Translations under genes and position numbers: made by a program | The notes under the pieces: generated by a model | Told to the model about the DNA's origin: nothing | Database searches by the model: none | The model's input: the letters and a program-made list of their open reading frames with translations, nothing else | Origin: Gordonia sp. KTR9 | GTDB taxonomy: Bacteria; Actinomycetota; Actinomycetes; Mycobacteriales; Mycobacteriaceae | Assembly (NCBI RefSeq): GCF_000143885.2 | Contig: NC_018581.1 | Span: 62,001-126,000 of the forward strand | DNA: 64,000 nt | Direction: 5' to 3' | Shown here: positions 13,667 through 55,211 of the stretch, one piece after another | Layout of the letters: the number at the start of each line of letters is the position of its first letter | Numbering within the stretch: position 1 is the stretch's first letter

Positions 13667-13674
13667 CGACCTCC

Positions 13675-13815: not shown

Positions 13816-13868
13816 TCGCAACCCCGTCGGAGGGTTGATCCGCGCGCGGAGGGGTAACACCGGGTTCC

Positions 13869-33488: not shown

Positions 33489-33505
33489 GTTCCGCTGCCC
33501 CGCTT

Positions 33506-33647
33506 GCTCCCTGAGGTGCGAGCTTGCGAGCGTCACTCCGCTCCCTGAGGAGCGAGCTTGCGAGCGTCACGAAGGGTCTTGGTGAGTCGGGTTGCGATGA
33601 CCCTTCGTGACGCGCCCTCCGCAAGCTCCGGGCGCTCCTCAGGGAGC
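33506..33647. repeat. Dispersed repeat cluster, two direct and one inverted copy
   Basis: Copies start at 33506 (GCTCCCTGAGGTGC) and 33540 (GCTCCCTGAGGAGC), again 34 bp apart as in the 13.7-kb array. The second ends in GTCACGAAGGGTC (33566-33578). After a 20-base spacer an inverted copy runs from GACCCTTCGTGACGC (33599) to GCGCTCCTCAGGGAGC (33647). The second and third copies can fold into a stem of about 40 bp. It lies between convergent genes, and the sequence to 33728 holds no gene. Confidence 0.9.
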
Positions 33648-38339: not shown

Positions 38340-38547
38340 GCTCCTCGCACCTCAGGGAGCGGAGAGAAGACGCCCGCAGACCCGCTCCTCGCACCTCAGG
38401 GAGCAGAGAGAAGACGCCCGCAGACCCGCTCCCCGGGGAGCTGGGGGTAGCGCTTCGGCTTCATCCCGCTCCCTGAGGAGCTGGGGGTAGCGCTTCGGCT
38501 TCATCCCGCTCCCTGAGGAGCGAGCTTGCGAGCGTCACGAAGGGTCC
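38340..38547. repeat. Nested tandem repeats of the dispersed family
   Basis: Two 44-bp units start at 38340 and 38384 (GCTCCTCGCACCTCAGGGAGC plus GAGAGAAGACGCCCGCAGA). Two 40-bp units follow at 38428 and 38468 (GCTCCC then GGAGCTGGGGGTAGCG and CTTCGGCTTCATCCC). A final copy of the standard element starts at 38508 and ends GTCACGAAGGGTCC. A reverse piece CCCTTCGAGGCTCGTCGCTTACG precedes the array at 38318. The whole 257-bp gap between the aldehyde dehydrogenase and DUF779 genes is filled by this family. Confidence 0.9.
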
Positions 38548-38574: not shown

Positions 38575-39000
38575 ATGACCGCCGAGCAGAGTGTTCCTGA
38601 TCGCGTGGTCGCCACAGACTCCGCCGTGCAGCTCCTGACCAAGTTGTCGGAGCTGCACGGCGGCCTCATGATCCACCAGTCCGGTGGGTGCTGTGACGGC
38701 TCGGCCCCGATGTGTTACCCGGTCGGGGAGTACCGCGTGGGCCAGCGGGATGTGCTGGTCGGCGAGATCGAACTCCCCGAACCCATCCCGGCCGTCAGGG
38801 TCTGGATCAACGGCGACCAGTTCGAGCTGTGGAAGCACACCCAGCTGATCCTCGACGTCGTGAAGGGTCGCGGCGCCGGGTTCAGCCTCGAAGCACCGGA
38901 AGGAGTCCGTTTCCTCTCGCGTGCACGGACTTTCACCGACGAGGAGAACGAGGTCCTGGCGGCGTCCCCGCCGCTGACGGGGGCCACCGCCGGCCCCTAG
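38575..39000 (+). CDS. DUF779 domain-containing protein
   Basis: A 141-residue soluble protein of the DUF779 family (Rv0459 by synteny), usually encoded next to aldehyde dehydrogenases. The signature HQSGGCCDGSAPMCYP has cysteines 39, 40 and 47, which may bind metal or a cofactor. Later ILDVVKGRGAGFSLEAPEGVRFLSR completes the domain. A role as partner or maturation factor for the dehydrogenase is inferred from the steady pairing only. It ends 12 bp before a strong hairpin. Confidence 0.92.
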   Translation: MTAEQSVPDRVVATDSAVQLLTKLSELHGGLMIHQSGGCCDGSAPMCYPVGEYRVGQRDVLVGEIELPEPIPAVRVWINGDQFELWKHTQLILDVVKGRGAGFSLEAPEGVRFLSRARTFTDEENEVLAASPPLTGATAGP

Positions 39001-39011
39001 CCGGCCCCACA

Positions 39012-39058
39012 CAGAATGCGTCATACGTATCGGAAGCCGATACGTATGACGCATTCTG
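39012..39058. terminator. Perfect 22-bp inverted repeat
   Basis: Arms at 39012-39033 and 39037-39058 are exact complements (core GCGTCATACGTATCGG and CCGATACGTATGACGC) around a 3-base AAG loop. It lies 11 bp after the DUF779 stop and 14 bp before the stop of the convergent secreted-protein gene, so it can terminate both. The arms are less GC-rich than the surroundings. Confidence 0.7.
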
Positions 39059-39071
39059 CGTTCCGGAGCGT

Positions 39072-39667
39072 CTCACCACTGGTCGAAGCCGACGTTGACC
39101 TGGGGGTAGCCGGTGTCGATGTGTGGGTTGATCCAGTGGTTCTGGGCGTGTGGTCCCCAGATGGTGGTCATGTCGGTGTTGACGTTGTGGGGGTGGTTGG
39201 TGAGTTGGTAGTTGGCGGTGGGGCCGAACAGTCCGATGCGGTAGATGGCGTTGACGTCGAGGTGGTTGGTGTAGGGGGCTGTGGCGGTGATGGTTTCGGT
39301 GGCGCCGGGGTAGAGGATGTGTTGGGGTGCGTTGACCCATTGGCCGCCGTCGGCGTTGGCGCCTTGGAGGTATTCGGGCTTGTCGGTGTGGTTGGTGATG
39401 GTCATGGCGACGGTGGGTTCGCCGGGGCGGGTGATGGGCAGGGTGCCGGCGTGGGCTGCTCCGGCGGCGCCGAGGGCGATGCCGGTGGCGGCGGCGAGTC
39501 CGAGGGTGGCGGTGGCGATGCGGGTGGTGGTCTTCATGGTGTGCTCCCGGTGTGGTGGTGGGGTTGTTTCGGTGACACCAATGACTGTGCTCGCCGGGGG
39601 CGGTGTGTGGTTTCCGCTGATCGGGTGATGGAGGGGTTGAATCGCACCTCCACCGATCGGGGGACAC
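39072..39667 (-). repeat. 596-bp direct repeat, copy A
   Basis: This segment recurs at 52658-53253 in the same orientation with the same length and about four base differences by eye. It covers the whole small secreted-protein gene and about 130 bp of its promoter, and ends at GGGGGACAC. The two copies flank 13.0 kb that includes iniC, iniA, iniB, the Hsp70-like gene, iniR and arr. Confidence 0.95.
39073..39537 (-). CDS. Small secreted protein, copy A
   Basis: A 154-residue exported protein of unknown function. Signal peptide 1-30 ends at AHA (RIATATLGLAAATGIALGAA). The mature part is rich in Asn, Thr, His and Pro, with YTNHLDVNAIYRIGLFGP, NVNTDMTTIWGPHAQ and GYPQVNVGFDQW, and looks like a beta-sandwich. 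The paralogue at 52659 differs at two residues only (HILYP here against HVLYP, QNHW against QNYW). Start ATG 39537 follows a GGGAGCAC. The identical upstream regions mean that both copies should be regulated alike. Confidence 0.85.
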   Translation of the reverse strand: MKTTTRIATATLGLAAATGIALGAAGAAHAGTLPITRPGEPTVAMTITNHTDKPEYLQGANADGGQWVNAPQHILYPGATETITATAPYTNHLDVNAIYRIGLFGPTANYQLTNHPHNVNTDMTTIWGPHAQNHWINPHIDTGYPQVNVGFDQW

Positions 39668-39758
39668 CGGGCCGGTGTGCCCGAGACACGACGTGGACGA
39701 GACACGAGGTGCGTCGAGTTCAGCGAGTGGCAACCCATGGGGGCACTACCATCGAGGA

Positions 39759-40301
39759 ATGTCGAACGCCGACGGCTCCCCACCGCCCCGCCCGCGCGTC
39801 GCCGTCACACCGATGCGCCCGCAACGACCGACCGGACGCGCCCCCGCCATTCGGTACGTGATTCTCGGCTGGCTGATCTCGGTGGCCCTGGTGGTGGTGA
39901 CAGTCGGACTGACACTGCTGTCCCTCAACGACATTCGGGCCACCCTGGCCGCAGACCTGGTTCGGGCCAATCCGGACAGCGGAACCGACGCCGCGCGCGC
40001 TGTCGACATCTCGCTGATGGTCGGCGCGGTCATCGCCGGGATCGTGGTGGTCCTGGGCCTGTACGGATCTGCCCGGCTCTGGGACAGCCGTCGGTCCGGC
40101 CGGACCATCCTGACCGTCGGGGCAGTCGTCGCCGTGGCCGGCGCGGGGGCGTTTCACCTCACGGTGAGTCCATCCGCGACCGCTCTCGCCGATGTCGGAT
40201 TTCCGGTTCTCGCACAATGGATTCCGGCGGCCGCGGCACTCGTCGCGGTGATCGCCACCGGGTTCTCCTACAGCCGGTCGGTCACGGCATCCCTGCGCTG
40301 A
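39759..40301 (+). CDS. Four-helix integral membrane protein, unknown
   Basis: A 180-residue protein. The proline-rich cytoplasmic N-terminus (1-30) is followed by four membrane helices at about 33-55, 83-105, 115-132 and 145-168. The start ATG 39759 has CGAGGA just upstream. The family is not recognised; similar small proteins with a Pro-rich head are common in actinobacterial envelopes. Its last 20 bases overlap the 3' end of the convergent iniC gene. Confidence 0.78.
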   Translation: MSNADGSPPPRPRVAVTPMRPQRPTGRAPAIRYVILGWLISVALVVVTVGLTLLSLNDIRATLAADLVRANPDSGTDAARAVDISLMVGAVIAGIVVVLGLYGSARLWDSRRSGRTILTVGAVVAVAGAGAFHLTVSPSATALADVGFPVLAQWIPAAAALVAVIATGFSYSRSVTASLR

Positions 40302-41790
40302 ACCCGTCGTTGCCACCGGTCCGGACGGCCGCACCCAGTTGCGCGACGATGCCCTCCGCGCTGCGCACCGCGACCTGACACGCCGACGCCGATGACGGCG
40401 GTAGGAGCGGGTGGCCGGCACGTGCCCGCCAGACACGCGCGGAGTCGATGGCGGCGTCGCGCAGCGTGTACACATCGGCGGTCGGTGGCAGCCCGAGCCG
40501 GGCCGCGGGGTCGATACCCGAACCGCCGATGAGTCGGGTGACCTCGGCGGTCTGGTCGGGGGGAAGGTCGACGCCACCGGCCCGGATGGTGCTGAGCAGG
40601 CGCAATTCGCGGAACCCGTGCACGTCGGCGAGTTCCCGACGGACCGAGGCGCGGACGTCGCGGGCTCCCGCCGACGGTGACGCGGCCAGCAGATGATCCA
40701 TCGTCACCAGAGCGGAATGGGATTTGAGCTGGTCCGCGCGCTGTCCGAACTGGGTGTCGATGATGGCACCCAACTCGGAGAGTCCGCTGCGCTCGACGAG
40801 CTCGGCGGCCAGCGCCGACGACGAGGTGGCGCCGAAGCGGATGAGCGTGACCGCCATCCGGATCCCGAAGGCGCCGAAGCGTTCGGCCAGCGAACGACGC
40901 AGGTCCGCCGGGATGTCGGGCAGGATGTCGGGCCGGGAGAACCTGTCCATGGTCAGCAATGCCGCCTCGAGGTCGGGTCCCGGGGTCGACGCCAGCTGTG
41001 CCAGCGCGCGGAACTCGACCTCCCGCATCGTGCGGGCGGCGAGGGCCAGGAGTCCCGCGACCGGGACGACCGCCTGGCAGAGCCCGGTGCGTTCGAGTTC
41101 ACCGGCGAACCGCCCGGCGATCTGATGCGCCGAGATCATCGCGTCCATCCGGCCGGCGCCGAGTTCGTCGGCCCGGGAGACGACGCCGATCACGCCGAGC
41201 GGACCCGACGATCCGCCGATGGCGGACCCGATACGACGCAGCATCGTCGTGTCGGTGGCGGTCAGTGAACGCAGGAGGTAGACGACGGCGTCGACGCCGG
41301 ACAGGCCGTCGTCGGGGGTGAGGAGCCGAAGCGTGGACGCGGACAGCTCGGTCGAGAGCGACGCCGTGCCCGGGGTGTCGACGATGGTCGTCGACTGCAG
41401 CGCCCGTGCCGGCCATTCGACGTCCAGGTGGTCGACGCGTTCGGCGGTGAGGCGCCCGAAATCGAAGCCGAGCCGGCCGTCGATGCGGGTGACCGGGATG
41501 CCGACCGCGCGGCCGTCGTCGACGTGGGCGGTGACCGACGGCGACCGGCCGTTGCGGTACCAGGTGACGACCCGCGTGCACTCGGTGGCATCGGTGGGGG
41601 CGATGTCCTGTCCGACAAGGGCATTCAGCAGAGTCGACTTCCCCGCCTTGAGCGAGCCGGCCAGCGCGACCCGCACCGGCTGGTACAACCGGTGTGCGCA
41701 CACGTCGAGTTCGGCCTGTGCACGCGGGTCGTCGGCGAGGGCGGTGCGGGTGGCCTCGAGAAGTGCTCGGACGCGGGCGATGTCGGTCAT
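40282..41790 (-). CDS. iniC: Dynamin-like GTPase IniC
   Basis: A 502-residue dynamin-superfamily GTPase. G1 P-loop GSLKAGKST is at 45-53, the G2 threonine is in DATECTRV, G3 is DTPG (TTIVDTPGTAS) and G4 is VVSRAD. The rest is helical. It is the third gene of a leftward iniB-iniA-iniC unit, starting with an ATGA overlap on the iniA stop. In mycobacteria iniBAC is induced by cell-wall inhibitors such as isoniazid and ethambutol, and IniA/IniC are thought to remodel or repair membrane. That role is inferred here from orthology. Confidence 0.93.
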   Translation of the reverse strand: MTDIARVRALLEATRTALADDPRAQAELDVCAHRLYQPVRVALAGSLKAGKSTLLNALVGQDIAPTDATECTRVVTWYRNGRSPSVTAHVDDGRAVGIPVTRIDGRLGFDFGRLTAERVDHLDVEWPARALQSTTIVDTPGTASLSTELSASTLRLLTPDDGLSGVDAVVYLLRSLTATDTTMLRRIGSAIGGSSGPLGVIGVVSRADELGAGRMDAMISAHQIAGRFAGELERTGLCQAVVPVAGLLALAARTMREVEFRALAQLASTPGPDLEAALLTMDRFSRPDILPDIPADLRRSLAERFGAFGIRMAVTLIRFGATSSSALAAELVERSGLSELGAIIDTQFGQRADQLKSHSALVTMDHLLAASPSAGARDVRASVRRELADVHGFRELRLLSTIRAGGVDLPPDQTAEVTRLIGGSGIDPAARLGLPPTADVYTLRDAAIDSARVWRARAGHPLLPPSSASACQVAVRSAEGIVAQLGAAVRTGGNDGFSAGMP

Positions 41791-43796
41791 CGGCGGGGGA
41801 GCTCCGTGGCGGGGTCGTCGGGGTCGAGGTGATCGGCGGCCTTGCGCAGGGCGGCCACCGCGGTGAGCCGGGACTCGAGTTCGGCCACCCGTCCGGATCG
41901 CTCCGAATCGGCGAGGGACGCGGCTGACTGTGCGGCACTGAGGGATTCCGAGATCGACCGGGCGGTCTGTTCGGCCACCGAGCTGAAGTGGTCGCGGAGG
42001 ACCCGCTGGATGACCCGCAACCGGTCGCGGGACTCCTTGCCGACCTGGAAACTGACGTCGTCGGTGAACGAGCGGACGGCGACCTTCGCCTTGGCGCGGC
42101 GCTCGAGGACCTTGGCCTCCTTGTCGTCCCGGTAGGCCTTGGTGCCGAGCAGCAACCCGGCGCCGACGGACACCGGGTTGATCAGCGCCATGCCGACCAT
42201 CGTCGAGATGAGCCCGAACATCAGCACACCGCCGTACGAGCCGCGCATGCCGATCAGCAGCTTCTGGGCGACACCGACTCTGCCGCTGTCGAGTTCGGCG
42301 AGTTCGGCGACGGAGTCGAGAACGCCGGTGAGGTCCGCGACGTCGATGTCGGGGAGCGAGTTCTGACCGGCGGCCGCGAAGTGGTCGGCGACTCTCTCGG
42401 CGAGCCACACCGACCGCTCGTGCGCCCAGACGAAGTTGTCGCCGACGACCGCCGCGGTCTGGTCGGCCAGCCAGTCGCTCAACTGTTCCCAGTCGACCCC
42501 CGGATCGCCCTCGTCGATCGCCCGTTCGGCTTCCCGGGTCACCGCGCGGAGACGGTCCCGCAGGTCGTGGTCGATGTCGGCGGCGAGGTCGGCGATCCCG
42601 TCGGCCAGCGTCTGTTGCCACTGGGCGGACTGCCGGCGCATGGCCTCGGCGTCGGACTTGGCCTCCCGGAGGGCTCCGACGGCGCGGCCGGCGGTCTCCG
42701 GATCACGCAGCGCGGCGAGCTCGCTGCTCAGCGTGAGGGCGAGATGTTCACTGACGACGCGCAGGTCGGTGGCGACGGTGGTGCGGGTCGCCTGCCGGGC
42801 GGTCGCCACCACGCGCTCGCGCAGGTAGCGGTACAGCTCGAGGAATCCGGCCTCCGCATTGAGTTTCTCGTCGCCGAGGCGCAGCGCGTGCGTACGGAGC
42901 ACAGACGACACCGGGAGCAGCGGGATGTCGAGGCCCGCGGTCTGCAGATGCGTCCGGTCGGCGTCGACGATGGCCCGCCAGTGCGGATACAGGTCGGTTT
43001 TCGTGATCAGACACGCGATCGTCGGGCACAGCCCGGCCACCTGCTGGAGGAACGACATCTCCGGTGCGGTGAACTCCTGACTGGCATCGGACACCACGAG
43101 CACTGCGTCGGCCGCCGCGACCATGCCCAATGTTGCTGCGGCATACGGGTGCCCGTGGCCTCCGACGCCGGGGGTGTCCACGAGGACCAGGCCGTCGGCG
43201 AGCAGCGGGCCGGGTGCCTCGATCTCGAGGCGGAGGACCTCGCGGCCACCGGCGAGCGGGGAGTCGGGGGTGATGCCGGCGATGGCGTTCATCGGCACCG
43301 GGATGCGGTTGTCTGTCGACGGGCCGTCGACGATCAGATGAGCCGCCGGCTGCGGGGCGTGTGAGATGACGGTCGGGACCGCGGTCGTCTCGTCGTCGCC
43401 GACCGAGCACACGTCGAGGTTGAGCAGGGCGTTGACGAACGAACTCTTGCCCTGTTTGAGCTGACCCACCACGACGATCCGCAGCCGGGGGTCGGTGATC
43501 CTGGTGCGCGCGCCGTCGAGCCGGCTGACGAGATCGTTGCGACCGGCCTCCCGGGCCACCTCGGACATCGTGGCCAGCAGGTCGCCGATGGTGCTGGGCG
43601 ACTGCGTCGTTCCCGCCGGACGTGAGTGGGCCGGTGGCGTCGTCGCGGGCGGAGACGTCCGGGACGGGACGGCGGCATGTGCTGATCGGGCCGGTGTGGC
43701 CGGGATCGGCGGTGTCCGGGCCGGGGCGGGGTCCTGGGCGTCCCGACCGGCGGCGTGCCGGCCGACCCGAGGCGGTTCGGCGGGTGGAGTCGTCAT
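41787..43796 (-). CDS. iniA: Dynamin-like GTPase IniA
   Basis: A 669-residue dynamin-like GTPase. An Ala/Pro-rich N-terminus (1-65) precedes the G domain: G1 GQLKQGKSS at 111-119, G3 DTPGVGGHGHPYAA, G4 ITKTDLYPHW. The helical stalk holds a membrane paddle, GGVLMFGLISTMVGMALINP then VSVGAGLLLG, near residues 530-560. Mycobacterial IniA is a membrane-fission dynamin with this layout. ATG 43796 follows GAGGAC and replaces a longer frame to 43856. The stop overlaps the iniC start. It lies 189 bp downstream of iniB. Confidence 0.93.
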   Translation of the reverse strand: MTTPPAEPPRVGRHAAGRDAQDPAPARTPPIPATPARSAHAAVPSRTSPPATTPPAHSRPAGTTQSPSTIGDLLATMSEVAREAGRNDLVSRLDGARTRITDPRLRIVVVGQLKQGKSSFVNALLNLDVCSVGDDETTAVPTVISHAPQPAAHLIVDGPSTDNRIPVPMNAIAGITPDSPLAGGREVLRLEIEAPGPLLADGLVLVDTPGVGGHGHPYAAATLGMVAAADAVLVVSDASQEFTAPEMSFLQQVAGLCPTIACLITKTDLYPHWRAIVDADRTHLQTAGLDIPLLPVSSVLRTHALRLGDEKLNAEAGFLELYRYLRERVVATARQATRTTVATDLRVVSEHLALTLSSELAALRDPETAGRAVGALREAKSDAEAMRRQSAQWQQTLADGIADLAADIDHDLRDRLRAVTREAERAIDEGDPGVDWEQLSDWLADQTAAVVGDNFVWAHERSVWLAERVADHFAAAGQNSLPDIDVADLTGVLDSVAELAELDSGRVGVAQKLLIGMRGSYGGVLMFGLISTMVGMALINPVSVGAGLLLGTKAYRDDKEAKVLERRAKAKVAVRSFTDDVSFQVGKESRDRLRVIQRVLRDHFSSVAEQTARSISESLSAAQSAASLADSERSGRVAELESRLTAVAALRKAADHLDPDDPATELPRR

Positions 43797-43985
43797 GGTG
43801 TCCTCACGGTAGCGGTGAGTCGGCGCGTCCGGTCGGCATCGGCCGGGCTTTCGCATGTGGCCGGTCGGTGCGACCGCGGTCGGGCCGGTTGAGGGGACGC
43901 GGACGAGGACCGCCCCGGGGCCGGCCCACGTCCAGGGTTGCTGGAGCGATGGGCGGTCCCGGGGCGGGTTGCCGACCTGAAGGGG

Positions 43986-46900
43986 TCAGTCGGCCTCGGG
44001 TCCGGCGTCCGGGGTGTCGACGCCGATCCCGGTGTCTGTGTCGCCACCGAGGCCACCGGTCAGGCCTCCGGTGAGGCCCCCGGTCAATCCGCCGGTGAGA
44101 CCGGCGGTCGTGTCGGCCACGCCGCCGACGGTCGTGTCGAGTGCGCCGCCGAGTCCGGCGTCGGTGTCGGTCGCGCCGCCGAGGTCGAGGCCGCCCTCCG
44201 CACCGGCACCGCCACCCGCGTCGACTCCGCCACCGGCGACCGCGCCACCGGTGAGTCCACCGGCCACCCCGCCGACGATGTCCGTCGTCGTGTCGAGGGT
44301 GCCGCCGACGGTCGTGTCGAGGGTGCCGCCGATCCCGGTCTCGAGCGAACCCGCGGTCTCGCCGACCGCGTCGACCGCCCCGCCGGCGGTGCCGGAGATC
44401 GCGGTGGTCAGCTCCGCGGTGACGTCTGCAGGCAGCTCGGTGTCGAGCGCGCCGCCCAGGCCCAGGTCGCCACCCAGGCCGAGGTCCCCACCCAGTCCGC
44501 CGCCGAGGCCGCCGCCGGTGTCGAGACCCAGCGCACCGTCGAGCACCGGACCGGCGGTGGCTCCCAGCGCGGCGTCGCCGATACCGAGACCGGTCTCCAG
44601 GGTGCCGGCGAGTCCGCCCTCCAGGGTGGTGTCCAGTCCGGCGACCAGGTCCGTGCCGGTCTCGGCCACGGTGCCCAGGCCGGCCAGGGTCCCGGCGCCC
44701 AGGTTGCCGGTGAGGCTGTCGACGACCGTGCCGCCGAGTGATTCGGTGACCAGGATCGGGCCGCCGACGGTGATGGTGCCCTCGGGGGAGAGGATGAGGC
44801 TCGGGTTGATGATCGCCTCGAGTTCGCCGGTCAGCGCGCCGCCGAGGCCGCCGGTGGCCTCCAGGGTCGAGTCCAGGGTGGCGACGAGGCCGTCGGTGGC
44901 CGACAGGTCCACGTCGAGCGCGGTGCTGAGAACGGTGCTGAGCGCCGCGGGGAGGTCCGCTCCGGCCGTCAGCTGGCCGGCGAGCGAACCACCGAGTTCC
45001 CCGCTCAACGCGGTCCCGAGGACGGCGCCGAGTGACGCGCCGAGGTCGGCGCCGACATCGCCGCCGGCTGCCAGCACGGCCTCGAGGGTCCCGCTGAGGT
45101 CGGCTGCGGTCTCGGTCACCAGGCCGAGTCCTGCGCCGGCGTCGAGCGCGGCGTCCAGCGCCCCACCGAGCTGCGCGATCAGTGCGCCGTCGACGCCGAG
45201 AGCACCACCCAGATCCGCGGCCAACAGTTCGCCGAGGTTCAGGCCGGCGCCGGCCGCGGCGTCGAGGATGCCCTCGATGCCGGTGGTCGCGCCCAGCACG
45301 CCGCCCAGGGTGGCCCCGAGTCCGGCTGCGAGGTCGCCGCCACCGCCGACGATCGCGCCCAGTTGCGCGGCCAGGTCGGTCGCCAGGCCGCCCTCGAGCA
45401 GACCCGTGAGGTCGGCACCGAGAACGCCGCCCAGCTCGAGCGCACCGCCCAGGGCTGCCCCCAGGTCGGCACCCGCGGCAGCACCCAGGACGCCGGAGAG
45501 CACCGTGCTCAGCGCGGTGTCGAGGCCTGCGCCGGCCGACAACAGACCGTTGAGTGCGGCACCGAGTTCGGTGCCGAGCCCGCCCACGACCCCGAGGCCG
45601 CCGCCGAGTGCGCCCTCGACCGCGCCACCGAGGCCGGCGCCCAGTCCGGCACCGAGATCCAGACCTGCGTCCAGTGCGCCACCGACCCCGGCTCCGAGTG
45701 CACCACCGAGACCGAGTCCGGTCTCGAGGGCGCCGCCGAGGCCTGCGGTCAGGTCGGCGGCCAGGCCACCTTCGAGGGCTGCGGCCAGGGTGCCGCCCAG
45801 TGCCGCTCCGAGATCGGCAGCAGCCTCGCCACCGACCTCGAGGCCGGCGGCCAGGGCGCCCGCGAGCGTCGTGCCGAGGTCGCCGCCCGCTTCGAGCAGT
45901 GCCTCGACGTCGACGATCCCGCCGGCTTCGAGAACGGATTCGAGCGCCGCGGCGAGACCGGCCTGAGCGCCGCCGCCGACACCGAGCGCGGCGGTCAGGG
46001 CGCCGCCGAGCACGGCGTTCGCACCGGCCGCGCCGGTCAGGACCAGGCCGCCGGTCGCTGCTGCCGTCGAGGTCAGGGCGACACCCAGTGCGGTGCCGAG
46101 GGACGCGGCGGCCGTACCGCCCGCGGCCAGGGTCGAGCTGAGGGCGCCGCTGAGCGTGGCGCCGAGTTCGCCGGACAGATCGGCGATGGCCTGCGCGTCG
46201 AGCAGACCCGACAGCGTCGCGGAGAGGTCGCCGGCGACGTCGAGAGTGGAGGTGAGAGCCGCGGTCAGATCTCCGGACAGTTCGGCACCGAGGCCGAGTG
46301 CGCCGGTGAGGACCGCCGAGAGTGCGCCGCCGGCCCCGAGGCCGGCACCGAGCGCGGCCGCGAGGTCGGCACCGAGTGCGCCGCCCGCGCCGATCGTGGC
46401 ACCGAGCAGACCGCCCAGCGTCGCACCGAAGGAGCCGGCGAGTTCGCCACCCACGCCGAGTGCCGCGGACAGCTGTGCGGCGAGGCCGCCGCCGAGTCCC
46501 AGGCCGAGGTCGGCACCTGCGGCGAGGAGCGCGTCGAGCGACGCACCGAGCTGCGCGACCAGAGCGCCTTCGGCGCCGATCGCACCGGCCAGCGATCCGG
46601 CGATGACCGGGCCGATGCCCGCGCCGAGCTCGAGTCCGCCGTCGACGATCGTCTCGAGAGCGGCTCCGAGTGCCGCACCGAACTGTGCTGCGATCGCGCC
46701 GCCGGCGCCGACACCGGCCGCCAGCGCCGCACCCAGTGCGACGGCCAGCTGGCCGGCGAGGTCGAGGTCACCGAATGCGATACCGCCGAGGTCGAGATCG
46801 GCCAGGGACAGACCGGAGAGGTCGATGTCTCCCAGCCCGATGCCTCCGAGGAGGCCGCCGAAGTCGATGTCGCCCAGAGCGATTCCGCCCAGGTCGAGTC

Positions 46901-47297
46901 CACCCACGCCGAGGCCGCCGAGATCGAGCCCGCCGATGTTCACATCACCGAAGTCGACGTCGCCACCGCCGAGGTTGATGTCGCCGAGGTTCAGGCCGCC
47001 CAGACCGATACCGCCGCCGACCACGCCTCCGCCGACCACGCCTCCGCCGACTGCGCCGCCGACTGCTCCACCGGCCGCTCCGCCGCCGGCACCGATGATC
47101 GCGCCGAGTCCACCGGCGGCTCCGCCGGCCAGACCGGCATCCGCCACCAGCGGGGCCGCCGCGGAGACGTCGGCCGGGGTGATGCCGGTTAGTCCGGCAC
47201 GGTCGATGGCGGCCTGGGGGTTGCCGCAGTAGGCGTTGAAGGATTCCTCGTCGCGAAGCAGACCGAGGATGAAGTCGAGTACCGCGTTGGTCGGCAT
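43986..47297 (-). CDS. iniB: IniB-like giant Gly/Ala/Leu-rich repeat protein
   Basis: A 1103-residue protein, over twice the 479 residues I recall for M. tuberculosis IniB. Residues 9-51 (FILGLLRDEESFNAYCGNPQ, AAIDRAGLTGITPADVSAAA) are the IniB N-terminal domain. Residues about 100-182 are a pentapeptide-like tract (LGDIN, FGDVN, IGGLD, LGDID, FGDLD). From about 185 to 1060 the chain is a degenerate repeat of LGAALGGAL and AGAxL type with Leu and Ala at regular spacing, then a Thr/Gly/Asp tail. There is no signal peptide or cysteine apart from Cys24. ATG 47297 has AAGGAAC upstream. It is likely a structural or membrane-associated scaffold induced by envelope stress. Confidence 0.88.
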   Translation of the reverse strand: MPTNAVLDFILGLLRDEESFNAYCGNPQAAIDRAGLTGITPADVSAAAPLVADAGLAGGAAGGLGAIIGAGGGAAGGAVGGAVGGGVVGGGVVGGGIGLGGLNLGDINLGGGDVDFGDVNIGGLDLGGLGVGGLDLGGIALGDIDFGGLLGGIGLGDIDLSGLSLADLDLGGIAFGDLDLAGQLAVALGAALAAGVGAGGAIAAQFGAALGAALETIVDGGLELGAGIGPVIAGSLAGAIGAEGALVAQLGASLDALLAAGADLGLGLGGGLAAQLSAALGVGGELAGSFGATLGGLLGATIGAGGALGADLAAALGAGLGAGGALSAVLTGALGLGAELSGDLTAALTSTLDVAGDLSATLSGLLDAQAIADLSGELGATLSGALSSTLAAGGTAAASLGTALGVALTSTAAATGGLVLTGAAGANAVLGGALTAALGVGGGAQAGLAAALESVLEAGGIVDVEALLEAGGDLGTTLAGALAAGLEVGGEAAADLGAALGGTLAAALEGGLAADLTAGLGGALETGLGLGGALGAGVGGALDAGLDLGAGLGAGLGGAVEGALGGGLGVVGGLGTELGAALNGLLSAGAGLDTALSTVLSGVLGAAAGADLGAALGGALELGGVLGADLTGLLEGGLATDLAAQLGAIVGGGGDLAAGLGATLGGVLGATTGIEGILDAAAGAGLNLGELLAADLGGALGVDGALIAQLGGALDAALDAGAGLGLVTETAADLSGTLEAVLAAGGDVGADLGASLGAVLGTALSGELGGSLAGQLTAGADLPAALSTVLSTALDVDLSATDGLVATLDSTLEATGGLGGALTGELEAIINPSLILSPEGTITVGGPILVTESLGGTVVDSLTGNLGAGTLAGLGTVAETGTDLVAGLDTTLEGGLAGTLETGLGIGDAALGATAGPVLDGALGLDTGGGLGGGLGGDLGLGGDLGLGGALDTELPADVTAELTTAISGTAGGAVDAVGETAGSLETGIGGTLDTTVGGTLDTTTDIVGGVAGGLTGGAVAGGGVDAGGGAGAEGGLDLGGATDTDAGLGGALDTTVGGVADTTAGLTGGLTGGLTGGLTGGLGGDTDTGIGVDTPDAGPEAD

Positions 47298-47647
47298 GGC
47301 GTCGTTCCTTGCGTCGGGGAGATCGGAGTTCGATCCCGTGTCGAGTTCGACCGTATGGACTTCGGCGCGCGACGACATCGGGGTAAATCCCCAGTCCTGT
47401 GGCGGGGGGGGGTCTCGTCGGCGGCATAGGGGATCCGACCGGGGGATCGGTGCTCGTCCCGCCGCACGGGTGGGGGTGTCGGGACTTTCCCCCTAATCTC
47501 CGGCCAGGGCTAACACCCGGGGACCGGTACGCGACACACTGGGTGAAGTGCACCGCCGGGGCCGGGGCACGTGACATCGACGGTGAGCTCACGAGATGAG
47601 CGACCGTCACCGACCACCGTCTGCAGGTGCGAACAGGAGTGACCGTC
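47298..47647. promoter_or_regulatory. Divergent iniBAC / hsp70 control region
   Basis: A 350-bp gap without a gene. It has the dyad GGGG-TAAAT-CCCC at 47380-47392, a run of nine G at 47404-47412, and GGGACTTTCCCCCTAATC near 47480, which repeats the theme in degenerate form. Any of these may serve IniR or a nucleoid protein. The hsp70 ribosome site CAGGAG is at 47636. No clear -10/-35 pair was found. Confidence 0.4.
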
Positions 47648-49411
47648 ATGGCCATCGGGATCGGTGTGAAGATCGGAACCGCGAACAGCGTTGCGGTAGC
47701 TGCTTCGGAACAGTCCTGGGAGGGTGCGGTCTCGGTCGAGACCTCCGCTCTGGTCGATGCCGACGACTTCCTCGGACGGGTCGGCGACCCGGTACCGATG
47801 CTCGACGAGCACGGACGCACGATCGCGGCCGCCGAGATCTACGCCGACGCGGTCGCGGCGCTGATCACCCGGCTCGACCTCGGCGCGGACTCGACGTCGT
47901 TCGACGATCTGCACATGAGTGTCGTGTATCCGGACAACTGGACCGATCAAGCCGTCGACGAGGCCCGGGCGGCGCTCGCGGCCCACCCCGACACGGTGCC
48001 GGCGGAGTCGACCACCTGGGTGCCCGAATCGCGGGCGATCCTGGCCGCCGCCGAACACGCCGAGGGCGCCTTCGGTGAGGGCACCGTCGTCGTCTGCGAT
48101 CTCGGCGCCGCCGGCCTCACCGTCTCCGTCCTGGCCACCGGCTCCGACCCGGTCCGCCTCGGCCGGCCAGTGCACCTGGACACCGTGAGCGGCAACGAGT
48201 TCGATCGCCTGGTGCTCGCGCACACGCTGCGGGTGACCGGTGCCGACGCCGAGGTCGACTCGGGTCTGGCCGATCCGCAGCGCAGTGATGCGATCCTCGA
48301 CGACGTCAATCGGTTGCGCGCCGACTGCCGACGGGCCAAGGAGTCGTTGTCGGTCGACACCGACACCGTCGTCGGAGTGCGGATCGGAGCCGTCCACACC
48401 GAGGCGCGATTGGTCCGCGACGACATCGAGGATCTGCTTCGCGCGCCCGTCATGGAATCGGTTGCCCTCGTCCGCGAAGCTCTTGCCGCCTCCGCGAGCG
48501 GTGTCGACTCCGGAACGGCTGCCGCAGGACTGAAGCCGGCGGAGGTGAGCGCGGTTGTCCTCGGTGGCGGTGGTGCCGCGATCCCACTCGTGACCGAGAT
48601 GCTGTCCTCGACCCTGCGCCTGCCGGTCGTCCTCGACTCCGATCCGGCCTCCGCATCGGCAGCCGGTGGCGCGCTCCTGGCGGGCGCGGCGCTCGCCGAG
48701 CAGCGGTCGGCGATCACTCCCGCGACCGTCGCGACGACCGCATCGATCGTCCCGGCCTCACCCGAAGACCGGCCGCTCCGCGAGATCGTCCCGGCACCGA
48801 GCACTCCGCTGACCGAGCCCGCCCCGCGGTTGTCGCGGCGCAAGCGCGGGACGCTGATCACGCTCGGGGCCGCCGCATTGGCCCTGGTCACGGCCACCGG
48901 ACTCTCCGTCGGCACCGGACTCGTCGGCTCGGTCGGTGAGGCCACGCCCCCGCCGGCGGGTGCGGCGACCACGACGGCCACCTCGACGCAGAACCCCGCT
49001 GGCGGCCCTGGTACCACCGTGACAGGTGCGCGTCCCGGGACCACCGCGGCACCGGTGACCGGAACCGGCACGCGAGCGCCGGGTACGGCAACCGACGCCC
49101 CGCGTCGGACCGCCGCCGGGGCCTCGTCAGCCGGTGGCCCGTCGGGCGGCGCCCCGTCTGCCGGTGCTCCCGCGCCCGGAAACACCCCCGGGCGCCCGGC
49201 ACCAGCGCCGGCACCCGCGCCCGCTCCGGCACCTGCGCCCGCTCCGGCACCTGCGCCCGCGCCCGCTCCGGCCCCGGCACCTGCGCCGGAACCGGACACC
49301 AGCGGTGGCGGCATCACCCCGGGCGGCGTTCTCGACGGCACCGGCCGGGTCCTCGACGGCACCGGTCGGATCGTGTGCGGCGTGACCGGCGTCGTCGGCG
49401 TCGACTGCTGA
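47648..49411 (+). CDS. Membrane-anchored Hsp70-like protein
   Basis: A 587-residue protein. Residues 1 to about 360 form an actin-like ATPase domain related to DnaK: phosphate-1 IGVKIGTANSVAVA, phosphate-2 VVVCDLGAAGLTVSVL, and adenosine motif AVVLGGGGAAIPLVTEML. The substrate-binding domain of DnaK is absent. Instead a basic RRKRG stop leads into one membrane helix (about 402-424), then a Thr/Ala/Pro-rich outer region with a tract of about fifteen Ala-Pro pairs (49200-49290) and a C-terminal VLDGTGRVLDGTGRIVCGVT ending GVDC. Divergent from iniB, it precedes iniR. A role in sensing or chaperoning at the envelope is inferred. Confidence 0.87.
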   Translation: MAIGIGVKIGTANSVAVAASEQSWEGAVSVETSALVDADDFLGRVGDPVPMLDEHGRTIAAAEIYADAVAALITRLDLGADSTSFDDLHMSVVYPDNWTDQAVDEARAALAAHPDTVPAESTTWVPESRAILAAAEHAEGAFGEGTVVVCDLGAAGLTVSVLATGSDPVRLGRPVHLDTVSGNEFDRLVLAHTLRVTGADAEVDSGLADPQRSDAILDDVNRLRADCRRAKESLSVDTDTVVGVRIGAVHTEARLVRDDIEDLLRAPVMESVALVREALAASASGVDSGTAAAGLKPAEVSAVVLGGGGAAIPLVTEMLSSTLRLPVVLDSDPASASAAGGALLAGAALAEQRSAITPATVATTASIVPASPEDRPLREIVPAPSTPLTEPAPRLSRRKRGTLITLGAAALALVTATGLSVGTGLVGSVGEATPPPAGAATTTATSTQNPAGGPGTTVTGARPGTTAAPVTGTGTRAPGTATDAPRRTAAGASSAGGPSGGAPSAGAPAPGNTPGRPAPAPAPAPAPAPAPAPAPAPAPAPAPAPAPEPDTSGGGITPGGVLDGTGRVLDGTGRIVCGVTGVVGVDC

Positions 49412-49445
49412 GCCCGTTGACTCCCGGTCTGGTGTGGACTGTTCG

Positions 49446-51957
49446 ATGACGCCGACGACATCGGTCTCGACCATCGGCGACCGACCGGACCCCTCGCCCC
49501 CCGTGTCGCGCACCGCGTCGTGGGTGACGAGCGTCGTCGACCGTGCGCACCGGGGCCATCCGCTGTGTGCCGTCGCCGTCGGCACCCCGGGCAGCGGCCG
49601 GTCGGCGCTGCTGGGCGCCGTGCACGAGCAGCTTCGGCGGCGGGGCCTGCCGGTGAGTGTCGGCCTGCCCGCGGGCGGCGAGACCGGCCCCGTGTTCGTC
49701 CTCGCCGACGACATGCACTTGTGGCCCGCTCCCGTGATCGCGACCACGTTGGGCATGCTCGACGCCGGGACGATCGGCCTGATCGCCACAACCGAACCGC
49801 GGGAACTGGACCCGAACGTCCGCCTACTCCGCGACCACGCCCGGCCGTACGGCGCCGTCCTCGAACTGGAGGCGTTGGGCACCGCTGATGTCCTGACCCG
49901 CGCGGCCCGCGCGGGAGTCACCCTTGAGCCGACCATGGCGTCGCAGATCCGTCGACGCTGTGGTGGTGCGCAAGTGCTCATCGACACCGCGCTCGCGGCG
50001 ATCCGGAACGCGGCGGGCGGCGGCCCGCAGATCGTCGGCGAGCCTGCGGCCGACGTGATCGCGATCGTCGATCAGGTTGCCCGCGAATGGCATCACCGGC
50101 TGCTGCGCGGGCTCGATCCGCTGACGCTGGCGGTGCTCGCCCTCGCCTCGGTCCGGGCACCACTCGACCCCGACAGCGTCGCCGATGCGTCCGGTGTCGA
50201 CCGGGCCGACGCGGCCGGGGCCATCGATCGGGCACGAGGGTGTGGCCTGCTGCGCGGATCGGACGTCTTCGTCTCGGCGGCCACCGGGCCGCTGCGGGAT
50301 GTGCTGGGCGACCGGCGGATCGACGAGCTCCGGCACAACTCCGTGGCAGCCGGTCTACGCGCGGCCGAACTCACCCCCGACACCGCCCTGCTCGCGGCCG
50401 AGGCGGGCGTCGACGACCCACGCATCGTCGACGCGTTGCTGGCCGGTGCTGCCGACGCGACCGCTGCGCGGGCGGTGGTCCTCCTCCGGGCTGCCGATCG
50501 GGTGGAGCCGGGACGCGATGACGTCCGGCTGCTGATGGCGCAGCGTGCCCTGTCGTCGGGTGACCTCGACGGTGCGGGCGCCGTCGCCGATCAGCGGCTG
50601 GAGGCGGCCGGCCCGACCGACCCCGGGGTGCAGGAGTGGGTGGAACTCGCCGCCACTGTCGCCGCGCATCGCGGTCTCGCCTCACACGCCGCCGACCTGT
50701 ATCGCTGGCTCGGATCGAATCCGACGAGTACGCAGTCCCTTTCGGCCGCGGTCTCGCTGCTCGCAGTCGGCGACCGCGCGGCGGTCACCGCCATCGCGGA
50801 GGCGGACCGCGGCCGCGCGCCGGTGGCGAGTCGGGCCGCTCGGTCGATGGTGGTCCGCGGCTTGCTGGCCACCGTAGGAGAAGCGGGTGACACGATCGCC
50901 GGTGATGCGGTGGACTCCGTGATCCGTGGCCTCTCCGCCGGGGGGTCCGCGTCACGGGGGCCGTACGCGATCCGGATCCTGCAGGCGGCCGTCGCGATGA
51001 TGCTCAACCACGGCGACATCGCTGCCGCGCAGACGATCCGGACGGCGGCACCGGAGTCGGGGCGAGCTCTCACCGACGCCGAGATCGCGCTGACGGCCGG
51101 TGATCTCGAGGCAACCGCACGTCTGTTGCCGTCGGACGATCCGGTGGCGATGTCCGATCGGCTTCGGTGGCAGGCGATCCGGCTGGGACTGGCCCGGCGC
51201 CAGGGTGACATCCCGGCGCTGACCGCGGCGTGGCAGCACGGATTGCCGCTGCTCGCCGCCACGGAGGTGGACCTCTACCTGCTGCGTTCGCTCGGCGAGT
51301 TCTGGATCGGCGCAGCGTGTCTCGAGCAGGTGCCGGCGATCACCCGATATGTCGACGCGGCCGACAGGTTGCTCGCGGCTCTCGACAACCCCCCGGCGTG
51401 GTCGGCGTCCTGGGACTTCGCGGGGGTACAGGCCGCGGCCATCGCACGTGATGACTCCGCCGTGGCGCACCGGTTGGCGCGTCTGGACCGCGCGGCTGCG
51501 CAGGACCGGACGGCCCGACTGCTGGCGAGGAGTGCCCACGCCTGGGTGTCCCTGACCCTCGATGGCACCGACGCCGGCGCCGAGACCGCCGCGGACGAGG
51601 TCCCCGGGTCCGTCGACGCGCTGCGCAGTGTCGGATTGCACTGGGAGGCAGCCCGGTTGGCGGGTATGGCCGCTCTGCGTGCCGACGATCCGTCGACCGC
51701 GGCCGGCCTCCTTGACACCGCGCGATCGGCCGGCGAGGACCGGCACCGCACTCCGCCGGCCGGCGGGCCGCTCACCGAGCGTGAGGCAGAGGTCGCGCAC
51801 GAACTGCTGCCAAGGATTGACCCACCGGGAAATCGGTGAGCGACTGTACATCTCGGCGAAGACCGTCGAGCATCACGTCGCCCGGATCCGCCGCCGGCTC
51901 GACGCCGGATCCCGGTCGGAACTGCTCGCCGCCCTGCGTGCAGCCGGATATCGGTGA
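49446..51957 (+). pseudogene. iniR: IniR-type LuxR regulator with a single-base frameshift in the DNA-binding domain
   Basis: A large LuxR (LAL-type) regulator of about 836 codons if read through, close to the 832 residues I recall for mycobacterial IniR (Rv0339c). The N-terminal nucleotide-binding part has GTPGSGRSA at 46-54, where Arg replaces the usual Walker A lysine, and VFVLADDMHLW as Walker B. A long helical (TPR-like) middle follows. The HTH begins LTEREAEVAHELL in frame 1, but one extra C at about 51810 moves the rest (QGLTHREIGERLYISAKTVE, HHVARIRRRL) to another frame. Without a shift translation stops at 51839 with no HTH. GTG 49434 is an alternative start. Confidence 0.82.
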
Positions 51958-52069
51958 CCACGGCCATGACCCTTGACTGTAAACCGCCCTGTGGTGGGAC
52001 GCCGCGACCGTATTGTCTTCTGTCCGTTTCTATGGGGTGGTTTCCAGCCCGACCGGCCGCCGTCAAGGG

Positions 52070-52507
52070 CTAGTCGTAGAGAACCGCGTCGCCACGCTGC
52101 CGAAGCGCCTCCAACCCCGCGCGGAACTGCCGGAGGTAATCCGGCGAATGGGCTACCCAGCCGGTCATCTCGCCGACGATCCGCACCGGTTGTGCACTCC
52201 GGTACGAGTGGGTCGGGTTGCCGGGGAACTTTTTGTCGGTGACGTTCGGATCGTCGTGGACGTCGTCCTGTGGTTCGACGACGTAGACCCGGGGGCGACC
52301 GTCGCCCACCGCCATCTCGGCTGCGAGGACCGCGCCGTCCAGCACCTTGGTCATGTAAACGTAGTTCGAGACGTGTTCCGGACGGTAGTTCGACCGGTGG
52401 CCCGGTGTCAGGAAGTCGCCGACGCAGAGGTCGGCCTTCGTGCCGTGAAAGTACGCCCCGGACTCGTGGACCCGGAAACGTTCCGGTGTGTCCGCCATAT
52501 CTGCCAT
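52070..52507 (-). CDS. arr: NAD(+)-rifampin ADP-ribosyltransferase Arr
   Basis: A 145-residue enzyme that inactivates rifampin by ADP-ribosylation at its C23 hydroxyl. The sequence runs closely with M. smegmatis Arr: FRVHESGAYFHGTKADLCVGD, GHRSNYRPEHVSNYVYMT, VYVVEPQDDVHDDPNVTDKK then FPGNPTHSYRSAQPVRIVGE, and the ending LRQRGDAVLYD. The active-site His, Tyr and Asp of the family are in place. ATG 52507 has GGGAGG six to seven bases upstream. It lies alone between iniR and secreted-protein copy B. It should confer intrinsic rifampin tolerance, to be shown by testing. Confidence 0.96.
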   Translation of the reverse strand: MADMADTPERFRVHESGAYFHGTKADLCVGDFLTPGHRSNYRPEHVSNYVYMTKVLDGAVLAAEMAVGDGRPRVYVVEPQDDVHDDPNVTDKKFPGNPTHSYRSAQPVRIVGEMTGWVAHSPDYLRQFRAGLEALRQRGDAVLYD

Positions 52508-52657
52508 CGATCGCCTCCCGGTGTCGGTCGTCGAGCGATTGTGCACGGTCGCGGGGGCCTTGCCGCAAGCCCCTACTCCTCGCTTATGGTGAAAGGGGCG
52601 GGGTTCGGAGGCGGAGCACCACCCCCGAACCGTTCCCTCATCCTCCTTTCGAGAATC

Positions 52658-53253
52658 CTCACCACTGGTCGAAGCCGACGTTGACCTGGGGGTAGCCGGT
52701 GTCGATGTGTGGGTTGATCCAGTAGTTCTGGGCGTGTGGTCCCCAGATGGTGGTCATGTCGGTGTTGACGTTGTGGGGGTGGTTGGTGAGTTGGTAGTTG
52801 GCGGTGGGTCCGAACAGTCCGATGCGGTAGATGGCGTTGACGTCGAGGTGGTTGGTGTAGGGGGCTGTGGCGGTGATGGTTTCGGTGGCGCCGGGGTAGA
52901 GGACGTGTTGGGGTGCGTTGACCCATTGGCCGCCGTCGGCGTTGGCGCCTTGGAGGTATTCGGGCTTGTCGGTGTGGTTGGTGATGGTCATGGCGACGGT
53001 GGGTTCGCCGGGGCGGGTGATGGGCAGGGTGCCGGCGTGGGCTGCTCCGGCGGCGCCGAGGGCGATGCCGGTGGCGGCGGCGAGTCCGAGGGTGGCGGTG
53101 GCGATGCGGGTGGTGGTCTTCATGGTGTGCTCCCGGTGTGGTGGTGGGGTTGTTTCGGTGACACCAATGACTGTGCTCGCCGGGGGCGGTGTGTGGTTTC
53201 CGCTGACCGGGTGATGGAGGGGTTGAATCGCACCTCCACCGATCGGGGGACAC
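52658..53253 (-). repeat. 596-bp direct repeat, copy B
   Basis: The partner of 39072-39667, same orientation and length, with about four substitutions by eye (near 52723, 52809, 52902 and 53206) and no indel. It ends five bases before the stop codon of the histidine kinase gene. The left edge is not preceded by the 22-bp hairpin found next to copy A, so the junctions are sharp. Confidence 0.95.
52659..53123 (-). CDS. Small secreted protein, copy B
   Basis: A 154-residue exported protein, almost identical to the product at 39073. Val replaces Ile in QHVLYPG, and Tyr replaces His in QNYW. It has the same signal peptide (AHA cleavage at 28-30) and the same upstream 130 bp. A C-rich spacer at 52558-52658 with GGGTTCGG/CCGAACC arms separates it from arr and may act as a terminator. 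The function is unknown. The second copy doubles gene dosage unless one is silent. Confidence 0.85.
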   Translation of the reverse strand: MKTTTRIATATLGLAAATGIALGAAGAAHAGTLPITRPGEPTVAMTITNHTDKPEYLQGANADGGQWVNAPQHVLYPGATETITATAPYTNHLDVNAIYRIGLFGPTANYQLTNHPHNVNTDMTTIWGPHAQNYWINPHIDTGYPQVNVGFDQW

Positions 53254-53257
53254 GCCC

Positions 53258-54589
53258 TCACTGTTCGCGGGCGGGTACCTCCACGATGGCGACCGTGCCG
53301 CCGCGGGGGTGGTCGGCGAGCGACATCGTGCCGCCGGCCCCCTCGATCCGCACTCGTCGCGAGGCAAGTCCGATGTGGCCCTTGGCCTGTCGCTGCCGCA
53401 TCAGCTCCTCGACGTCGACGTCGGCGGGCAGGCCGACACCGTCGTCGACCACGACGAGTCGCGCTCGCCCGTCGTCGAACTCGGCGGTGACCTCGACGGT
53501 TGTGGCGGAGGCGTGTTTGGCGACGTTGGCCAGCAGTTCGCGAGCGGTGGCGAATATCAGCGGATCGACCGAGGTACGAAGCCCCGGTGGCCATCCGGCG
53601 GTGTCGACGGAGACCGTGGGTGCTCCGGCGCGGCTGCCGAACGACGACGCGAGATCGGTCAGGGCGACCGCCAGCCCGGCTTGCTCGAGCACCGCCGGGT
53701 GCAACTCGCTCAGCGTCGAACGCAGGAGTTGGGCCGCGTCGCGCAGCGCACCGTCGACGCGGTCGAGGGTCACGGGGTCGGCAGAATCGCGGAGCGTGGC
53801 GAGTTCCTGACGCGCGGCCAGCACGTACTGCAGGGCGCCGTCGTGGAGATTGTCGGCGAGATCGCGCCGTTCGCGCTCCTCGATCTCCATCGTCGCATCG
53901 AGCAGTCGGGCGCGTTCGGCGGCGAGCGCCCCGATCGTCCTCACCCGGGATCGCTGCAAGCGGGACAGCAGGATCGCGCCGACGGCCAGCGCCGCGACGA
54001 CGAGGATGCGCAGCACGATCACCGACCACGGTTCGCCGTTCGACGTGCGGGCCAACGCGGAGGAGACGGCGTACACCGCGGTCGTGACGACCACCACCGC
54101 GGCACATGTCCTGGGCTGCAGGGCGATCGCCGCGATCATCGGCACGAGGACGAAACCACTGAGGAGAACGTCGGTGGTCCAACTCGATTCGTTGGACCGG
54201 CTCGCCGCGACGGCGAGTGCGGTGAGCAGGAGAAGGTCGATGGGCAACGCGATCCACGAGTAACGGATCATCGCCGACTCGTGGCGGACCACGACGACCG
54301 CTCCACCGATACACCACGCCGCGTACAGGATTGCGGTCACGACGCTGAACGTCTCCGCGTGCGCTGGTGGATCGAGACTGACGGTCAGCAACACGAACAC
54401 CGACAGGAACAGCCGCAGGACCACCTGAATCCGAATACCGCGGATCGCGTGATCGATCAGGATGTCGTGGATCCTCGGCTCGTCGGCGAACTCGTCGAGG
54501 CCGAGATACCGAGTGGCCCCGGCGATCTTGTCGTCACCGCCGACGTCGACCCCTCGACTCGAGGAGGCCGCGCTACTCGAGGAGGCCAC
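53258..54589 (-). CDS. NarL-type sensor histidine kinase
   Basis: A roughly 443-residue kinase. Five to six membrane helices at about 50-220 are followed by a HisKA_3 dimerisation domain with the phospho-His in RRDLADNLHDGALQYVLAARQ. The HATPase domain has the N-box in LLANVAKHASATTVEV and the G-box VVDDGVGLPADVD. The start is uncertain. GTG 54589, inside the end of the upstream response regulator gene, is the best in-frame candidate, and the longer frame to 54757 overlaps that gene. It forms a two-component pair with the gene at 54573. The signal is unknown. Confidence 0.85.
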   Translation of the reverse strand: MASSSSAASSSRGVDVGGDDKIAGATRYLGLDEFADEPRIHDILIDHAIRGIRIQVVLRLFLSVFVLLTVSLDPPAHAETFSVVTAILYAAWCIGGAVVVVRHESAMIRYSWIALPIDLLLLTALAVAASRSNESSWTTDVLLSGFVLVPMIAAIALQPRTCAAVVVVTTAVYAVSSALARTSNGEPWSVIVLRILVVAALAVGAILLSRLQRSRVRTIGALAAERARLLDATMEIEERERRDLADNLHDGALQYVLAARQELATLRDSADPVTLDRVDGALRDAAQLLRSTLSELHPAVLEQAGLAVALTDLASSFGSRAGAPTVSVDTAGWPPGLRTSVDPLIFATARELLANVAKHASATTVEVTAEFDDGRARLVVVDDGVGLPADVDVEELMRQRQAKGHIGLASRRVRIEGAGGTMSLADHPRGGTVAIVEVPAREQ

Positions 54590-55211
54590 GGCGCATCGCT
54601 TCGGCCACCGCCGCCGCACGGTCGGACACCCCGAGCTTCTCGTACAGACGCTGTGTGTGCGTCTTGACCGTCGACGCACCGATGTAGAGCTCGGCGGCCA
54701 CCTGTGGAATCGATTGCCCCCGTGCGAACCCGGTGAGGACCTGTCGTTCCCGTTCACTCAGGGCGGGCGCATCGCGCTGGGTCTGCGCCCGGATCTCGCC
54801 GGCCAGTCCGGCGGCGAGCTCCGGTGGCACCACCGTCTCGCCCTTGGCCACCCGGGTCACCGCGCCGACGATGTCGTCGCGATCGGCATCCTTCGACAGA
54901 TAACCGGCCGCACCCTCCTGGAGCGCCCGGAAGACGATCGGCCCGTCGGTGACCGCGGAGAGCAACAACACCCGCGTCGGCAGAGCGTCGCGCGAGACGG
55001 CATGCGCGACCTCGACGCCGGTCATGAGCGGCATCTGATGGTCGACGACCGCGACGTCGGGTTTCTCCTGCCGGATCAGCTCGAGCCCCGCCATGCCGTC
55101 GGCGGCCTCGCCGACGACCCGCACCCGCCCACTTGCTGTCAGGCCCCGGGACACCCCGTCGCGGAAGAACGGGTGGTCGTCGACGACGACGACGGTGACG
55201 AGGCTGTCCAT
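54573..55211 (-). CDS. NarL/FixJ-family response regulator
   Basis: A 212-residue response regulator. The receiver has acidic residues in VVVVDDHPFFRDG, the phospho-acceptor Asp in DVAVVDHQMP and the conserved Lys in GYLSKDAD. The LuxR HTH at about 145-212 reads LSERERQVLTGFARGQSIPQ, VAAELYIGASTVKTHTQRLY. ATG 55211 starts the conserved protein. It overlaps the start of the kinase gene. The last codons lie in an 18-bp tandem duplication (ACTCGAGGAGGCC at 54557 and 54575 on the + strand). Target genes may include the adjacent secreted-protein copy B. Confidence 0.92.
   Translation of the reverse strand: MDSLVTVVVVDDHPFFRDGVSRGLTASGRVRVVGEAADGMAGLELIRQEKPDVAVVDHQMPLMTGVEVAHAVSRDALPTRVLLLSAVTDGPIVFRALQEGAAGYLSKDADRDDIVGAVTRVAKGETVVPPELAAGLAGEIRAQTQRDAPALSERERQVLTGFARGQSIPQVAAELYIGASTVKTHTQRLYEKLGVSDRAAAVAEAMRRGLLE

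Follow-up and report, generated by a model that had tools for sequence, protein, structure and literature searches.

Paralogous gene pairs that evolve in concert by gene conversion are known in bacteria, and a pair that appears to be of this kind is described here from Gordonia sp. KTR9. It lies in a stretch of 64,000 nucleotides (contig NC_018581.1, positions 62,001 to 126,000 of the forward strand), referred to below as the window, in which a gene for a small exported protein, named SEC, is present twice, on either side of a block of ini genes and the rifampin ADP-ribosyltransferase gene arr. The SEC copies resemble the described pairs in their fixed positions and in their likeness within a genome. 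They differ in that the repeated unit is a promoter-plus-gene cassette, its copies about 13 kb apart, and in that conversion is patchy in two of the relatives, G015 and G055. Also close are the NarL-type two-component systems, with MadRS and MctRS of NCBIfam. The response regulator encoded near one SEC copy matches NarL with 144.7 bits, but the scores of the pair are far below the curated cut-offs (MadR, 135.3 against 300; MctR, 127.4 against 300; MctS, 85.9 against 700; MadS, 64.5 against 500), and here the system is tied to SEC by co-inheritance and a DNA motif.

The two repeat copies, A (39072–39667) and B (52658–53253), are each 596 bp long and have the same orientation, with exactly four mismatches between them (99.3% identity); the similarity breaks off sharply at either end. 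The bracketed interval is 12,990 bp and the spacing from unit to unit is 13,586 bp. Self-BLAST of the window revealed no further repeat as long as 596 bp, and a search of the host assembly (5.89 Mb, four contigs) found only these two full copies of the unit, the next match being 76 bp at 74% identity. Each copy comprises one minus-strand SEC gene encoding a 154-aa exported protein (SEC_A, 39073–39537; SEC_B, 52659–53123) and 131 bp upstream of it. One edge of the unit is the SEC stop codon and the other lies just beyond a 16-bp palindrome; the units of G015 and G055 have nearly identical edges. The differences between A and B are I74V and H134Y (V74 and Y134 belonging to SEC_B), one silent change and one base inside P2, a second operator-like site. 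The repeats look like two copies of one complete regulated gene, SEC with its own promoter and proposed operator. The first-pass annotation, which had described direct repeats of equal length with about four differences and with a secreted-protein gene plus its promoter in each, was accurate in its coordinates and in all these respects, and the whole promoter and whole gene are present in both units.

In the window, the order around copy A is aldehyde dehydrogenase, DUF779, hairpin, SEC_A and TM4 (a small membrane protein gene), and the order between the copies is TM4, iniC, iniA, iniB, an Hsp70-like gene, iniR and arr. The locus was laid out in 12 close genomes, the window's genome included, with one genome per species. 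The species tree, based on rpoB, aldehyde dehydrogenase, the kinase and DUF779 and with G029 as the outgroup, has two clades. One consists of G003, G005, G026, G035 and G056; in the other, G021 branches off before G046, and G046 before the window, G015 and the G055–G022 pair, a fork with modest support (83/88). In the first clade, all five genomes carry a single SEC, positioned before the kinase. Two copies at the locus were found in four relatives (G015, G055, G022 and G046), and in the first three they occupy the window's positions; the draft assembly of G022 is interrupted within SEC. G046 has its first copy after iniR, accompanied by a DUF779-type hairpin, and not after DUF779. There (L038), hairpin–SEC_A and TM4-to-iniR stand in reverse order to the window, which amounts to a circular permutation; both junctions lie inside one 99-kb contig, and this draft, too, breaks in SEC.

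The identity of copies A and B within a genome is 99.2–99.3% in the window, 99.0% in G022 (partial), 99.5% in G046, 96.6% in G015 and 95.8% in G055, whereas the window copies are 91.4–92.7% identical to the well-covered copies of these four relatives. With an interspecies divergence of about 8.4%, some 50 differences between A and B would be expected in the window by a simple binomial yardstick, and four are seen. In the SEC tree, from which two short G046 fragments were excluded, copies pair by genome and not by position in the window, G022 and G046. Position clades are rejected, both for all A copies together (AU p 7e-12) and for all B copies together (2.9e-4). Across the window, G015 and G055, there are no position-marking sites against 31 genome-marking sites at which A equals B. 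Copy A has alignable flanks in four genomes; on one side 53 of 86 columns are invariant, and on the other, which includes the palindrome, 50 of 117. Copies thus stand at orthologous positions in the window, G015, G055 and G022, G046 differing, and within-genome likeness exceeds that of positional orthologues, clearly so for the window, G022 and the G046 pair. Since the copies group by genome while position clades are rejected, the simplest account is that the A and B positions are old and that gene conversion between fixed loci keeps the copies alike, with recombinational conversion as the presumed agent. The first-pass annotation had offered gene conversion as an alternative, and it is this alternative that the comparison favours. 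G029 has a tandem SEC pair with a partial secX between (L053, 9265–11676); because its copies are only about 75–77% identical, they seem to have undergone no recent homogenisation.

On the minus strand at copy B, the gene order is response regulator, sensor kinase, SEC_B. The NarL-type regulator gene (54573–55211), identified by profile matches, directly precedes that of the sensor histidine kinase (53258–54570), which has HATPase_c and HisKA_3 domains and lies directly before SEC_B. The open frame of the kinase extends to 54757, and the start is probably near 54570, judging by where the matches of relatives begin. SEC is present in 33 of 59 Gordonia genomes, and strong kinase matches occur in exactly those 33, the weakest at 7.1e-83 (G008, in two pieces); among the SEC-less genomes, the best kinase match is at 5.5e-17. 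In 22 of the 33, at most 20 kb separates a SEC gene from the kinase. On the rpoB tree, which covered 53 of the 59 genomes (G010, G039, G042, G045, G057 and G058, all six without SEC, were omitted), SEC and the kinase change together in seven of seven independent pairs (sign test, p 0.016), so that target and sensor are inherited together. Regulator and kinase are adjacent in all six further genomes inspected (G001, G020, G053, G018, G008 and G032).

The palindrome at the unit edge, P1 (39649–39664 in copy A, 53235–53250 in copy B), is the proposed operator. A motif search for TCCMCCGATCGGKGGA gave ten distinct sites in six genomes, each preceding one of ten SEC genes, and none for the reversed-pattern control. 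With N at the two variable positions, 63 distinct sites were obtained in the 59 genomes, 48 of them at most 350 bp upstream of SEC; the reversed control had matches in one genome. Counting fragments and contig ends, the site is present for 47 of 58 SEC matches, and near-misses such as L060, L064 and L066 are one base off the N-form. A weaker second site, P2 (39613–39628 in copy A, where it holds one of the four differences, and 53199–53214 in copy B), lies 36 bp from P1. This step downstream of P1 was assessed in 27 promoters, both of the window's and 25 from a set of 33 loci; the mean number of mismatches was 5.2, compared with a median of 11.9 for offsets 20–79. The loci L054, L055, L068, L083, L085 and L086 were excluded from the count, as were L077 and L079 of Williamsia. 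The element GGTGTCACC (39571–39579 and 53157–53165, minus strand), or a one-base variant of it, was found in 18 of 33 promoters, 85 bp after P1. The Mycolicibacterium locus L071 has the palindrome as well, with the second site at 35 bp.

The SEC protein has an N-terminal export signal, recognised by inspection, and its model matches the aegerolysin/actinoporin-like β-sandwich. The fold likeness extends to Cry34Ab1 (4jox), ostreolysin A (6myi), RahU (6zc1), IP-1A (5v3s) and actinoporins; SEC differs from these proteins in its export signal and in sequence, the identity being only 6–16%. A comparison of 29 SEC members with Pfam, at E up to 10, brought up no aegerolysin model, and a sequence comparison with the PDB gave no match to SEC. 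The fold matches also include four uncharacterised proteins of large DNA viruses (E up to 0.001, TM about 0.5).

On the computed duplication, concerted evolution, co-inheritance, motif and predicted fold we base a reading that we consider probable, namely, that the SEC units are an old duplicate kept alike by conversion and, at the same time, an output dedicated to the neighbouring two-component system. A single SEC duplication probably took place in a common ancestor that the window shares with G015, G055, G022 and G046. The copies would then have been homogenised by ectopic gene conversion, their positions flanking the ini/arr block staying unchanged in the window and in the three genomes nearest to it. 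The kinase would sense a cue, and the NarL-type regulator, presumably by binding P1 and P2, would turn on both SEC copies. The output would be an exported small β-sandwich protein with a predicted lipid-binding type of fold, which may act on lipid or envelope.

Several observations weigh against this reading. Copy A is elsewhere in G046, so a single duplication requires an extra rearrangement there. The tree does not settle the grouping of the G015 copies (p 0.479), and in G055 the copies as a pair are rejected (p 0.011), copy A resembling G046; in these two genomes, conversion would therefore be incomplete, or other exchange has taken place. SEC and the kinase are apart in 11 of the 33 genomes, on the same contig at 1.9–2.1 Mb in two and on different contigs in nine. 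The operator is less than exclusive, 15 of the 63 sites being away from SEC and four of these falling in three of the 26 SEC-less genomes; conversely, 11 of 58 SEC matches have no exact site, four of the 33 SEC genomes have none at all, and for the Williamsia SEC genes L077 and L079 all sites carry three mismatches. The predicted fold likeness does not prove SEC function. Finally, the distant genome G051 has DUF779–SEC–kinase without secX and with no iniC match.

Three of the 15 sites away from SEC (in G001, G020 and G053) are a few kb from the kinase. A frame for a membrane-anchored, repeat-rich protein follows the site in G053 (L157, 3399–3962) and G001 (L155, 4803–5348), and in G020 (L156) the DNA behind the site begins like this gene. 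The +36 and +85 elements accompany the sites in G020 and G053 and are not clear in G001. The repeat-rich protein gene may be a second target of the regulon. Among the other 12 sites, seven were inspected and no comparable arrangement was seen.

The first-pass annotation had built on the repeats the idea of a switch, in which crossover between them reversibly deletes, circularises or amplifies the ini/arr block. Direct repeats that are nearly identical over 596 bp offer ample length for homologous recombination, and the permutation in G046 may be a trace of earlier movement of the block. Crossover predicts DUF779–SEC–kinase with no secX, ini or arr between; G051 has a similar layout but shows no sign of a lost block. 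That junction is absent from all 12 close genomes, a sample of one genome per species that rare events could escape, and megablast of the block against 72,556 plasmid records gave no match. On the rpoB tree, G051 is not a member of the clade in which the locus carries the block, so block loss by recombination between SEC copies need not be assumed for it, although it may have taken place. G021, which has no iniC match anywhere in the genome, was rejected as a deletion product since it retains secX between DUF779 and SEC. Deletion, circularisation or amplification by recombination of the copies is thus unsupported in this sample, and we regard the switch as quite improbable. The block itself was probably inherited and then lost in G021, because the trees of iniC, iniA, hsp70, iniR and TM4 (for the genomes with each piece) agree on the two-clade split and place G046 as sister to the remainder of the window's group. 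Both the window order and that of G046 would result from a tandem duplication of a 12.7-kb segment, hairpin–SEC_A–TM4-to-iniR, with differing losses in G046 and in the window's group, the SEC pair being partly its scar. Residual fragments of a second ini block were not seen at the locus, and the G046 draft is broken in SEC; this course of events seems unlikely.

Independent recent duplications of SEC in each species, with no gene conversion, would explain why copies from one genome group together in the window, G022 and G046, and SEC has been duplicated elsewhere, as the secX–SEC pairs of G029 attest. Copy A, however, lies between the same hairpin and TM4 in the four genomes with alignable flanks, and the unit edges are the same in the window, G015 and G055; repeated base-exact insertion is implausible, and with these shared flanks we judge recent duplication without conversion very unlikely. 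The same edges, palindrome and stop codon, could bound a mobile cassette that uses the palindrome as a recombination site, and SEC_A with its hairpin does occupy a different place in G046. Against this, most genomes with a single SEC also have the palindrome in front of the gene, together with a second site at constant spacing, an arrangement that would be typical for an operator. No recombinase gene lies in the unit, which is present in only two copies in the genome, and SEC has no plasmid or phage match; an insertion sequence or mobile cassette was therefore rejected as extremely improbable. An old duplication with conversion between fixed copies remains our preferred account.

The gene secX, which has no Pfam match, lies between DUF779 and SEC in G021 and likewise in G029 and G008. 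It was considered as an obligatory partner of SEC and rejected, since the window carries SEC twice and has no secX match.

The bracketed block has the contents that the first-pass annotation listed, and profile matches confirm iniC, iniA and iniB (40282–47378, minus strand), the Hsp70-like gene (47627–49411, plus strand), iniR (49434–51957, plus strand) and arr (52070–52546, minus strand) between the copies. The locus resembles the mycobacterial iniBAC/IniR locus in an IniB N-terminal domain that scores over its cut-off, in the two dynamin-like genes iniC and iniA, and in an IniR-like ATPase. It differs in that this ATPase, at 210.6 bits, is under the curated cut-off of 750 and has a broken frame, and in that the block includes the Hsp70-like gene and TM4 (39762–40301, plus strand), the right flank of copy A. 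The locus name is taken from the NCBIfam models. The window's iniR is split over two frames near the C-terminal helix–turn–helix, where relatives, G015 among them, have a single frame; the break could be a sequencing error. In G015, iniC is in two pieces in different frames (L034, 4757–6258). A query that covered iniC and ran partway into the adjoining frame found no relative in viral contigs.

The two SEC copies enclose arr in the window, G015, G055 and G046; G026 and G056 carry arr elsewhere, and the gene was not found in G003, G005, G035 or G022. Its arrival at the locus may date from about the time of the SEC duplication. In G055, iniR and arr are separated by variable genes that take up about 10 kb (L037, 1472–11713), where the window has none; an enoyl-CoA-hydratase-like frame among them is also present in G046, a likeness noted by eye. 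The left flank of copy A is the DUF779 gene (38575–39000, plus strand), followed by the hairpin (39011–39062), a likely terminator that accompanies SEC_A in G046. Its pairing is kept in G015, G055 and G022, although the stem sequence varies. A short repeat with a 34-bp period occurs at 13671–13816, 33505–33579 and 38492–38546, the last just before DUF779.

More broadly, Gordonia may possess a private module, a proposition that we hold to be evenly balanced. It would consist of a NarL-type sensor pair that acts chiefly through an exported protein of aegerolysin fold, with a two-site 16-bp operator nearly exclusive to it in each genome. The output gene would have multiplied as promoter-plus-gene units kept alike by conversion, bracketing ini/arr in the window's clade, with the permutation in G046 suggesting past duplication or excision of the block. 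This sensor–operator–SEC module is a more interesting result than a repeat-mediated switch. A drug-tolerance switch that was plausible but found no support gives way to a regulatory module open to testing, in which mycolic-acid bacteria would combine a single sensor pair, a single operator code and a single exported protein whose predicted fold is of the lipid-binding type. Operator and target match nearly one to one, so the regulon should be readable from sequence. With the SEC pair, gene conversion across 13 kb could also be gauged in a natural setting, and the module raises the question of what signal, from the envelope or from a competitor, leads Gordonia to respond with an aegerolysin-like protein.
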